Assembly (NCBI RefSeq): GCF_000474945.1
Contig: NZ_AXDW01000004.1
Span: 186,001 to 250,000, forward strand
DNA length: 64,000 nucleotides
DNA from: Solimonas soli DSM 21787
Lineage (GTDB): Bacteria; Pseudomonadota; Gammaproteobacteria; Nevskiales; Nevskiaceae
Direction: 5' to 3'
Shown here: piece after piece, positions 27,216-32,395 of the stretch
How the letters are laid out: every line of letters begins with the position of its first letter
Numbering within the stretch: position 1 is the stretch's first letter
Notes under the pieces: model-generated
Seen by the model: only the letters and a program-made list of their open reading frames with translations
Database searches by the model: none
What the model was told of the DNA's origin: nothing
Program-made: the position numbers and the translations under genes

Positions 27216-27219
<4 letters not shown>
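25402..27219 (-). CDS. treZ: Malto-oligosyltrehalose trehalohydrolase
   Basis: This 605-residue GH13 enzyme releases trehalose from maltooligosyltrehalose made by TreY. An N-terminal CBM48-like domain (ARTRFALWAPAQQRVQLLVDD region) leads into the barrel. Conserved regions are DVVYNHFGPDGNYLH, GLRFDAVHAIG, LVLENEHND and FLQNHDQIGNRA. NWGYDGVLPYAPDASYGTPDEL is characteristic of TreZ. The start is a GTG overlapping the glgX stop (GTGA); an ATG nine codons later (MRQGATYLG) is possible. Having both treY and treZ indicates a complete glycogen-to-trehalose route. Confidence 0.95.
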
Positions 27220-29426
<2,207 letters not shown>

Positions 29427-29540
29427 GGGGGTGCGATCGGGAGTTCTTGGTGTTCTACGGGGCTGCTCGGCGAGAGCTTTGGGTTCTCGCGCAATGGCGC
29501 TTTGGCTCTCGATCCTGCCTTTGATTTCGCCTTCGGCGAG

Positions 29541-30087
29541 GTACTTCTCTTTGCTTGTGCAAAGAGAAGTACCCAAGAGAAAGCACACCCTGAGGGCCGC
29601 ACCGCTCGCTGTCGCGAGCGGAGCCTGCGCTGCTCACGTGCTCGGGGCCGTCGCCGACAGGCCATCCATGGCCTGTCGGCGACTTGGCGTGCCGTCCTGG
29701 CGCGCCATCCGGCCCCGCCCACGGGGCGGGGCGTTCGCCGGGGCGGATGTCCACCGGACATCCGCAAATCCCCGGCTCACCCCCTGCGCGCGCTGCGCTG
29801 CTCGGTGCGGCCCTTAGGGGCCCGACATCAAAAGCGAAAAGCCGCAGCACAGCGTCGCGCGCAGCTTTGCTGTTGCTTTTGATGTTGGGCCCCTTTGCGT
29901 TGCGCCGAGGCGCGCAGATCCGGAGGGAGAAAAGCGGCCGAGTGTCTGAGCGGTGCGCAGCACCGCGAGTTTCGGCCGCGCCCTCCGGATCGAGCACCGC
30001 AGGGAACCCTCCGCGTAGCGGAGGGCGCAGAGCCAGGGTGTGCTTTCTTTTGCCTACTTTTCTTTGCACAAGCAAAGAAAAGTAGGG
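29541..30087. repeat. Tail-to-tail pair of multi-hairpin intergenic repeat elements
   Basis: This fills most of the 743-bp gap between glgB and glgX. Both outer ends carry the same module in inverted orientation: a perfect 14-bp stem with 4-nt loop (29541-29572 and 30054-30085), then on the inner side a stretch reading AGAAAGCACACCCTG from each end. Both inner ends share a 20-bp arm (29816-29835 and 29875-29894, one mismatch, reading AGGGGCCC then ACATCAAAAGC). Between these lie different perfect hairpins: 29602-29621, 29650-29683 (16-bp stem, 2-nt loop), 29744-29764 and 30007-30025. I read this as two copies of one modular element facing each other. Short open frames inside it do not look coding. 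Confidence 0.85.
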
Positions 30088-30169
30088 CGCGCGACAGCGC
30101 GAAACCAAAGCCGCCAAGCAATGACTGACAGCAAACTGGGGAATATTGCGATTCGTGGCCGTCATCGCC

Positions 30170-32391
30170 TCACCCCTCATGCCGCAACCACACCACCGCC
30201 AGCGGCGGAATGGTCAGCGTCAGCGCGTGCGGCTGGCCGTGCATCGGTGTCGGCGTGGTCTCCAGCGCGCCGGCGTTGCCGGTGTTGCTGCCGCCGTAGA
30301 ACGCCGAATCCGTGTTGAGCAGCACCTGCCAGCGGCCCGGGCAGGGGCAGCCGACCTGGTAACCGTGGCGCGGCACCGGCGTGAAGTTGCAGACGGCGAG
30401 CACCGGCCGCGCGTCGCCGTGGCCCCAGCGCACCCAGGCGTAGACGCTGTTCGCCGCGTCGTCGCCGATCAGCCACTGGAAGCCGTAGCTCTCGCAGTCG
30501 GCGGCGTGCAGCGCGGGTTCCTGCGCGTAGAGGCGGTTGAGGTCGCGGATCAGCTGCTGGATGCCGGCATGCCGCGGATCGGCGAGCGCCGGCCAGTCGA
30601 GCTGCGCATCGTGGTTCCATTCGCGCTCCTGCGCGAGTTCGCCGCCCATGAACAGCAGTTTCTTGCCCGGGTGCGCCCACATGAAGGCGAAGTAGGCGCG
30701 CAGGTTGGCGAAGCGCTGCCAGCCGTCGCCCGGCATCTTGCCGATCAGCGAGCCCTTGCCGTGCACGACTTCGTCGTGCGACAGCGGCAGCACGAAGTTC
30801 TCGGAGAAGGCGTAGACCAGGCCGAAGGTCAGCTCGTGGTGGTGATGGCGGCGATGGATCGGGTCGCGGCGCACGTATTCCAGCGTGTCGTGCATCCAGC
30901 CCATGTTCCACTTGTAGTTGAAGCCGAGGCCGCCTTCGGCGACCGGCCGCGACACGCCCGGCCAGGCGGTCGATTCCTCGGCGACGGTGATCGCGCCCGG
31001 GCAGCGCTGGCGCACGGTTTCGTTGAGCTCGCGCAGGAACTCGACGTTCTCCAGGTTCTCGCGGCCGCCGTAGCGGTTGGGGATCCATTCGCCGGCCTTG
31101 CGCGAGTAGTCGCGGTACAGCATCGACGCCACGGCGTCGACGCGCAGGCCGTCGATGTGATAGTGCTCGAGCCAGTGCAGCGCGCTGGCGAGCACGAAGC
31201 CGTGCACCTCGCGGCGGCCGAGGTTGTAGATCAGCGTGTTCCAGTCCTGGTGGAAGCCTTCGCGCGGGTCCTCGTGCTCGTAGAGCGCGGTGCCGTCGAA
31301 GCGCGCGAGGCCGTGCGCGTCGGTCGGAAAGTGCGCCGGCACCCAGTCGAGCAGCACGCCGATGCCGGCCTGGTGCGCGCGGTCGACGAAGCGGCGCAGG
31401 CCGTCGGGCTCGCCGAGCGGCGCATGCGGCGCGTACAGGCCCAGCGGCTGATAGCCCCAGGAGCCGCCGAAGGGGTGCGCCATCACCGGCAGCAGCTCGA
31501 TGTGCGTGAAGCCGAGATCGGCCACGTAGGGAATCAGCTGCTCGGCGAGCTCGTCCCAGGACAGCGACGGATGGCCGGGATCCCAGCGCCGTCGCCAGGA
31601 ACCGGCGTGCACCTCGTAGACCGCCATCGGCGCGTGGACCGACTGACGCTGCGCGCGCGCCGCCATCCAGGCCTGGTCGTGCCATTCGTAGCGATCCGGA
31701 GCGGCGACGATCGACGCCGTCTGCGGCGGCGCCTCGCATTGCCGGGCGAGCGGATCGGCCTTCAGCGGCAGCAGGCCGTGCGCGCCGAGGATTTCGTACT
31801 TGTAGCGCGTGCCGGCCGGCAGGCGCGGCACGAACAGCTCCCAGATGCCGGACGGCTTGCGCAGGCGCATCGGATGCCGGCGGCCGTCCCAGCCGTTGAA
31901 GTCGCCGACCACCGACACGCGCCGCGCATTCGGCGCCCACACCGCGAAGCGCACGCCGTCGACGCCGTCGATCGTCATCATCTGCGCGCCGAGGCAGCGG
32001 CCGAGTTCCTGGTGCCGGCCTTCGCCGATCAGATACAGATCGAGGTCGCCGAGCAGCAGGCCGAAGGCGTAGGGATCCTCGGTCTCCTGCGTGGCGCCGC
32101 CGGGCCAGCGGATGCGCAGGCGGTAGGCCGCCGGGCGCGCGAGCCGGCCGGCGAACAGCCCGCTGTCGCGCAGCGGTTCGAGCGTGGCGAGCACGGCTTC
32201 GCCGTCGCGTTCGACCAGTTCGACGCGCTCGGCGCTGGGCAGGAAGGCCCGCACCACGACGCCGCCGTCAGGCGTGCCGTGCGGGCCGAGCCAGGCAAAG
32301 GGATCGTGGCAGCTGCCGCGCACGAGCGCGTCGAGCACGGCGGCGGGCGGTTCGAGCGGACTCGCGTCGGTGTGTTGCATCCGGGTCTTGA

Positions 32392-32395
<4 letters not shown>
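30170..32395 (-). CDS. glgB: 1,4-alpha-glucan branching enzyme
   Basis: This 741-residue GH13 enzyme makes alpha-1,6 branches and serves both glycogen routes encoded here. It has a long N-terminal part with two CBM48-type domains ([12 protein letters not shown] and [24 protein letters not shown]). The barrel regions are [37 protein letters not shown] and [14 protein letters not shown]. The length matches E. coli GlgB (728). The ATG overlaps the treS-mak stop (ATGA), so it is probably coupled to the enzyme making its maltose-1-phosphate-derived substrate. Confidence 0.96.

Follow-up and report, generated by a model that had tools for sequence, protein, structure and literature searches.

The glgB–glgX junction of Solimonas soli

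The window, by which we mean the whole 64,000-nt stretch of Solimonas soli DNA that was analysed, carries on its minus strand the genes glgE, treS-maltokinase, glgB, glgX, treZ, malQ and treY, in this order, and glgC lies upstream of the glgE-treY run, after 112 nt. Gene calls throughout come from our own codon-usage gene finder, and no standard annotation was used. The genome is a draft of 34 contigs, in which several copies of the element described here stop at contig ends or N runs. Read from treY upwards, the predicted junctions measure −4, −4, −4, 743, −4 and +1 nt, so that the 743-nt gap is the sole break in the run, as a first-pass annotation of this DNA had claimed. The gap separates glgB (30170–32395, minus strand), which is upstream of the element, from glgX (27216–29426, minus strand), the first gene downstream. 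The segment just 5′ of glgX (29427–29470) is without the AAGGA stretch that is found 5′ of glgX in two other genomes of the genus, G006 and G007, and because this stretch is absent, translation of glgX may differ between S. soli and these two.

The element (29540–30087) consists of two inverted halves. Its inverted arms (29542–29592 and 30034–30084) are 51 nt long, agree at 90%, and each include an end hairpin and AAGCACACCCTG. The end hairpins, at 29540–29573 and 30053–30086, have perfect arms of 15 bp and a 4-nt loop (TTGT in the left one), which corroborates the outer module that the first-pass annotation saw in both facing halves, there with 14-bp arms. The core of the left end hairpin, TTTGCTTGTGCAAA, is found exactly 10 times in the S. 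soli genome, and its reversed control 0 times. A small hairpin lies outside each end hairpin, at 29524–29540 on the left (TCGCC...GGCGA) and at 30087–30103 on the right, and similar motifs occupy this place in many other copies. Inwards come the constant linkers, 29574–29592 on the minus strand (CAGGGTGTGCTTTCTCTTG read outward) and 30034–30052 on the plus strand (CAGGGTGTGCTTTCTTTTG).

Between the linkers, the left half holds a domain of CsrA-type, here called type A (29593–29830, minus strand), which is sense for the operon, and the right half a domain of type G (29894–30033, plus strand), which in the window copy is antisense to it. The two arms of an inner module are placed at 29817–29835 (minus strand) and 29875–29893 (plus strand); the inner inverted arms fall within 29793–29835 and 29875–29917, and thus the inner module described earlier as common to both halves was recovered. 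Folding of the RNA, which had been suggested as a check, gave z = −9.3 for the left domain (29582–29830) and z = −4.9 for the right domain (29878–30045), each against 200 dinucleotide shuffles, and relatives support both domains. The 16-bp stem with a 2-nt loop seen by the first-pass annotation is indeed present as an arm pair at 29650–29683, but the predicted RNA fold shows a larger loop there, and we read this hairpin as having a 6-nt loop, AUGGAU, in line with the Rfam match given below.

A dispersed family of modular repeats

The element is a copy of a modular repeat that is non-coding and dispersed in genomes. AAGCACACCCTG occurs exactly at 12 sites of the S. soli genome, with 0 for the reversed control, and BLAST of the element against this genome gave 40 matches, several of which belong to a single copy (the best 40 of 176 first-look candidates were scored). 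At E values up to 0.001, matches are present in 26 of the 41 genomes searched, S. soli included. The pattern GGGYGYGCTTTCTYT is found 1 to 63 times per genome in 15 chosen genomes (13 in S. soli and 63 in G010), whereas its reversed control gives 0 in all 15. Over the class as a whole, the exact end motif, searched with a pattern slightly different from GGGYGYGCTTTCTYT, is confined to 3 of 274 genomes, one of them S. soli, and a wide occurrence across the class was rejected on this basis.

The repeat unit is a folded RNA-like domain, made up of a GGGNNCCCTT-type inner module, a closing stem and variable hairpins, followed by the constant linker, the end hairpin and the small outer hairpin; the units often form inverted pairs. 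The two domain types occur in A-A, A-G and G-G combinations with the same end module. The first-pass annotation had proposed a mosaic family with conserved ends and an exchangeable middle, to be checked by counting copies and comparing middles, and both the number of exact end motifs in S. soli and the two types of middle agree with it.

A search of named genomes with the end module only returned 45 stretches, from Stenotrophomonas, Xanthomonas, Hydrocarboniphaga, Stagnimonas, Stenotrophobium, Mannheimia, Pasteurella and a Lysobacterales bin, plus four that look coding or accidental (L180, L192, L195 and L197) and were left out. The remaining 41 stretches hold 42 units, of which 38 are full length and the four truncated ones were dropped. 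The occurrence in Xanthomonadaceae, which the first-pass annotation had mentioned, is borne out by the Xanthomonas and Stenotrophomonas copies, although the genome of the window itself belongs to the family of Hydrocarboniphaga. The Pasteurellaceae and the window's group have the end module in common and differ in their middles. For Xanthomonas and Stenotrophomonas, the counts that model R1 gave over whole genomes were discarded as unreliable, with the best 150 candidates per genome scored and known copies missed (for example, 0 matches in G346, the genome of L185).

The arrangement of the units differs between groups. A-cores lying at most 500 bp apart form 36 outward-facing pairs and 0 inward-facing ones (18 genomes), but in Xanthomonas and Stenotrophomonas the units stand tail to tail, with the end modules inside, at 9 of 9 loci with both units delimited, and at L190 too by model matches. 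Because both arrangements exist, we take the half as the unit, and the inverted pair to have no single fixed design.

Several copies carry additional sequences. The tip of the end hairpin holds further nested hairpins or a second hairpin piece in several of them (L083, L085 and L182), copies in Xanthomonas and Stenotrophomonas are bordered on the side of the inner module by runs of GTTGTTGCTGTTGC- or CAACAGCAACAGC-type repeats (L186:300-1050, L213:5850-6620 and L220:1480-2160), and the centre of several S. soli copies (L003, L005 and L008) contains another repeat, CCCTCTCCCCGCTTGCGGGGAGAGGGTTRGGGTGAGGGG, which is presumably a common REP of Xanthomonadales. RF02902, the Aggregatibacter sRNA AaHKsRNA22, has two matches: one on the companion half of a Mannheimia copy, where it covers the elongated end hairpin (L182:499-596), and one in Pasteurella testudinis, on a similar hairpin that is about 0.6 kb away from the end motif (L179:4000-4098). 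The Pasteurellaceae end module may be what was catalogued as the RF02902 sRNA.

Tandem GGA hairpins in the type A domain

On the minus strand of the left half, in the sense of the operon, RF01731 (TwoAYGGAY) matches at 29645–29710 with 52.2 bits against a gathering cut-off of 43, over model positions 46-112 of 168 only. This core comprises hairpin 2 (29650–29683), with the loop AUGGAU at 29664–29669, and hairpin 1 (29686–29706), with the loop AGGAC at 29694–29698, both with a closing-pair probability of 0.999 in the fold of the full minus-strand RNA. The loop of hairpin 2 fits AYGGAY, and that of hairpin 1 is a 5-nt relative. In the Rfam scan of 28500-31000 at E up to 1, the CsrB/Rsm families are not among the 3 matches listed, but that list omits the name of one further, lower-scoring match to a clan-mate of RF01731; two microRNA matches, far below their cut-offs, were ignored. 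S. soli has one csrA, and residues 1-52 of its product align with the CsrA-family chain of 2jpp, which we take to be RsmE with RNA.

Its sequence motif had already led others to propose that TwoAYGGAY binds CsrA (PMC4333381), and ANGGAN is described as the loop motif bound by RsmE/RsmA (PMC3791407). Hairpin 2 fits ANGGAN exactly, and hairpin 1 is a 5-nt form of it without the first N. The two GGA triplets of the window are separated by 27 nt; CsrA is reported to bridge two sites 10 to 63 nt apart (PMC7652899). These features indicate that the left middle is likely a pair of tandem CsrA-type hairpins, which the first-pass annotation had missed.

Of the 58 genomes of the S. soli family, 30 have RF01731 matches above the cut-off (38 in G010 alone), as against none of the 14 control genomes. 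An alignment of 31 non-redundant cores (A1) was assembled from cores picked by their downstream end module, in genomes that were partly chosen via RF01731, a choice that tilts the set towards AYGGAY loops. We excluded L148, which has no anchor, as well as near-duplicates, units of type G and those containing N. Changes on both sides are seen for 18 of 22 pairs, with 129 double-change cells versus 38.2 in the shuffled and 15 to 23 in the slid controls, and GGA is present in the hairpin-2 loop of 31/31 cores and in the hairpin-1 loop of 27/31. A model built from the A1 cores gave 128 matches at 96 loci in 18 genomes, reduced to 127 after an antisense overlap (L175:15943-16023) was dropped. In this set, which is biased towards the model, GGA is found in loop 2 of 127/127 matches and in loop 1 of 113/127; the 14 losses in hairpin 1, 10 in G010 and 4 in G013, count against a CsrA site.

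To test the loops without a bias towards GGA, we used the Xanthomonas and Stenotrophomonas loci found by the end module alone and delimited 25 domains by nothing but their end sequences. In every one of the 25, the two loops have the form CA(N)GGA(N)G, carried by 6 and 8 different stems, and 20 of the 47 predicted pairs are changed on both sides. Each of the 24 full domains of Xanthomonas (9), Stenotrophomonas (7) and Hydrocarboniphaga (8) has two or more GGA loops in its fold, a few of the extra ones not being ANGGAN. At the end-module-only loci, the single Stenotrophobium domain has two GGA loops and the Lysobacterales domain one. RF01731 does not exceed its cut-off at any of the 16 named loci scanned, including nine from Xanthomonas and Stenotrophomonas and one from Hydrocarboniphaga (L214), so the Rfam model covers only part of type A; the missing matches at these ten loci also weigh against a CsrA site. 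An initial tandem-GGA finder was dropped, since it proved both too strict and unspecific (29 for GGA, up to 83 for other triplets).

The type G domain

In type G, two helices flank a conserved internal loop whose sides read UGUYYGA and GAGUU; in the window copy the loop, UGUCUGA/GAGUU, surrounds an inner hairpin at 29942–29971 (plus strand). The tandem GA beside the inner helix presumably resembles a kink-turn. The type is also present in Stagnimonas and Mannheimia, and in the 22 sequences aligned, one of them from Mannheimia, 96.9% of cells pair, with 69 double changes versus 21.3 in the shuffled alignment. The sequences were collected by the internal loop, so that its conservation is no independent result. 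There is no GGA hairpin loop in the fold of the window's G half, nor in the 12 full domains from Stagnimonas and Pasteurellaceae, and both observations count against the CsrA reading of the element.

Genomic positions and turnover

No predicted gene contains any of the 91 elements: 52 are in codirectional gaps, 33 in convergent gaps, 1 in a divergent gap and 5 at contig edges. Divergent gaps are avoided, with a convergent to divergent ratio of 33:1 for the elements versus 33:80 for the other gaps of the same stretches (p = 2e-13). Single type A cores in codirectional gaps are sense in 10 cases and antisense in 18 (p = 0.18), which again speaks against a CsrA site, and a simple sense-oriented cis-regulator was rejected for want of a sense bias. 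The neighbours of the S. soli copies include glgB/glgX, flgJ/fliE, flgI, an MCP gene, a sigma-54 activator and urease genes, among others. Five distinct flagellar or chemotaxis junctions, counted without a proper baseline, make a link to motility genes suggestive, and we claim no enrichment. In G007, an element lies between flgJ and flgI. In S. soli (C9:110000-122300; L083 and L090) two separate elements, about 10 kb from each other, adjoin one of these genes each, next to fliE in one case and to fliQ, which contains an N run, in the other, a layout that may reflect either an element-mediated rearrangement or a scaffolding error.

Eleven genomes of the genus were available, five of them with a glgX match, and the glgB-glgX junction holds an element in two of these five, as A-G in S. 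soli and as A-A in G010 (807-nt gap). The junction is empty in G006 and G007 (73 nt) and in G001 (7 nt), which counts against a CsrA site with a role at this operon. The proposal of the first-pass annotation, that the element may cut or tune glgX-treZ-malQ-treY relative to glgB, would likewise have to reckon with these three empty junctions. At this one junction, compared by eye, no target duplication was seen. Other junctions are occupied in several species: that of a CYTH gene with a gene of the tRNA U5-methyltransferase family in six, including S. soli, where the linkage is deduced from the two genes standing at contig ends (C18 and C25), that between a thiolase and a short-chain dehydrogenase in four, and fliR/flhB in three.

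Homogenisation was evaluated with 22 intergenic regions of five species, counted by the best single BLAST piece. The best match is at the same junction of another species for only 2 of the 14 shared-junction regions, and in the same genome for 15 of the 22, which indicates that element copies are homogenised within genomes. Furthermore, the interior of the element is opposite in orientation between species at three junctions, by alignment at thiolase/dehydrogenase and at the junction of S-adenosylmethionine decarboxylase-family and chemotaxis-receptor genes, and by the strand of the A-core at tRNA-methyltransferase/CYTH. The clearest case is G006 versus G007, where 369 bp are inverted at 94.9% and the sequence is colinear over 205 bp to the right and 53 bp to the left; non-coding sequence on the left side of the element does not align. 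The opposite orientations may have arisen by true inversion or by replacement with another copy.

Relation to known systems

The element resembles RF01731 in its A core, which scores above the cut-off, and in its two hairpins with AYGGAY-type loops. TwoAYGGAY was reported from human gut, gamma-Proteobacteria and Clostridiales (PMC2864571), and Rfam types it as Cis-reg, whereas here it is an exchangeable module of a dispersed repeat. In open-access papers, we did not find TwoAYGGAY described as part of a dispersed repeat, nor anything pertinent on the end sequences, on CsrA with REP or mobile repeats, or on the Aggregatibacter sRNA.

With the CsrA-sequestering sRNAs CsrB, RsmX, RsmY, RsmZ and RsmU, the element shares multiple GGA motifs. 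RsmU of Xanthomonas campestris is a single sRNA derived from a 3′ UTR (PMC7694677), in contrast to the multicopy element, and no sigma70-like promoter was detected in 29400-30250.

REP/BIME and GTAG palindromes, which are intergenic, palindromic and often dimeric (PMC3733652) and are linked with RAYT proteins, are likewise comparable, since the element has these same three properties. It differs from REP/BIME in its much larger unit, its covarying stems and the variable foot bases of its end hairpin. The foot reads GTAGG, GTACC, GTAAG or GTAAC rather than a constant GTAG, and S. soli has 0 Y1_Tnp matches. The element may also differ from the TIRYT-associated terminal inverted repeats, as the 30 Y1 loci fetched (the match and up to 1.5 kb on each side) contain no end module, and only one inner-module decamer (L252) and one loose hairpin match (L265).

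Interpretation

We consider it rather probable that the element is a mosaic repeat whose operon-sense half forms a CsrA site between glgB and glgX, and we infer its transcription, its binding and its effect from the sequence. In favour of this reading are the RF01731 match, the covarying stems with their kept GGA loops, the fit of loops and spacing to published CsrA sites, the csrA gene, and the placement of copies beside glycogen and flagellar genes, among others, and away from divergent gaps. A modular repeat that presents a pair of CsrA-type loops on a single strand, close to the ends of genes, is most readily understood as a CsrA site that is mobile or converting. Another possible, though less probable, account is that the copies act as 3′ UTR stabilisers, processing sites or partial terminators, influencing decay or polarity in the manner of REP/BIME, with the CsrA-like loops being incidental. 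The position of the elements downstream of genes, their very stable folding, the six terminator-like sites in 29400-30250 (0.8 in shuffles) and the match of a named Aggregatibacter sRNA to the end hairpin of the Mannheimia copy would all suit this account, which is compatible with a CsrA site. However, the terminator-like tails are mixed T-rich sequences with no clear T runs, and the strand-specific ANGGAN loops, kept across changing stems, would be left unexplained.

It is somewhat doubtful that the element is a selfish or neutral, non-autonomous repeat of MITE type, spread by some transposase and kept where it is least harmful, in which the folds would serve mobility as single-stranded hairpins and not the host. 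As in MITEs, terminal inverted repeats (the 51-nt arms, at 90%) are combined with a lack of coding capacity, no gene being called in the 743-nt gap. The dispersed copies with two-ended inverted modules, the presence or absence of the element at glgB-glgX, the near-emptiness of divergent gaps with 0 of 91 elements in predicted genes, and the missing sense bias are also what such a repeat would produce. Against it stand the occupation of the same junction in up to six species, the failure to see a target duplication at the one junction compared, and the loops themselves, which match the CsrA consensus including the C-G closing pair. Mobilisation by Y1/RAYT proteins was rejected: Y1_Tnp is present in 12 of 15 genomes but not in S. 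soli, G351 or G010, the genome richest in elements, and the fetched Y1 loci are without the end module. That the region is protein-coding or artefactual is hardly credible. Long open frames do cross the element and several copies end at contig ends or N runs, but the gene finder, based on codon usage, calls nothing in the 743-nt gap, the base-paired positions covary, and copies are found in named, independently sequenced genomes.

Returning to the CsrA site, the sense A domain would be produced by read-through transcription from the neighbouring gene, and a CsrA dimer could then bind both GGA loops. In this way the glgB-glgX RNA would become a CsrA site, with a change in the decay or translation of the downstream cistrons, and the A domain might titrate CsrA as well. 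The GGA loops precede the glgX start by about 240 to 270 nt and do not cover the ribosome-binding site, and therefore simple occlusion of this site is unlikely; decay, processing or CsrA titration would be a better fit. Repression of glgC and of glycogen synthesis by CsrA is described for E. coli (PMC7652899).

A broader proposal, which we regard as improbable, is that the family is a dispersed invertible RNA cassette, whose halves would expose either a CsrA-binding or a GA-loop domain in the passing transcript and whose interior, by flipping or conversion at a fixed junction, would switch the one that is sense. Glycogen, flagellar and other operons would then be overlaid by a distributed set of copies that both titrate CsrA and respond to it, and that possibly replace a dedicated sponge sRNA. 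One study of Xanthomonas reports that it found no CsrB, RsmX, RsmY or RsmZ homologue there (PMC7694677).

An orphan Rfam motif with a CsrA prediction is hereby linked to a specific carrier in the genome, a mosaic repeat whose ends are constant, which occurs in the Hydrocarboniphaga family, Xanthomonas and Stenotrophomonas, and has another middle in Mannheimia and Pasteurella. The dozens of natural variants of one candidate binding module allow a direct test of the CsrA proposal. If the A domain binds CsrA, an interspersed repeat could bring operons under a global regulator, which would be a possible route of regulon rewiring.
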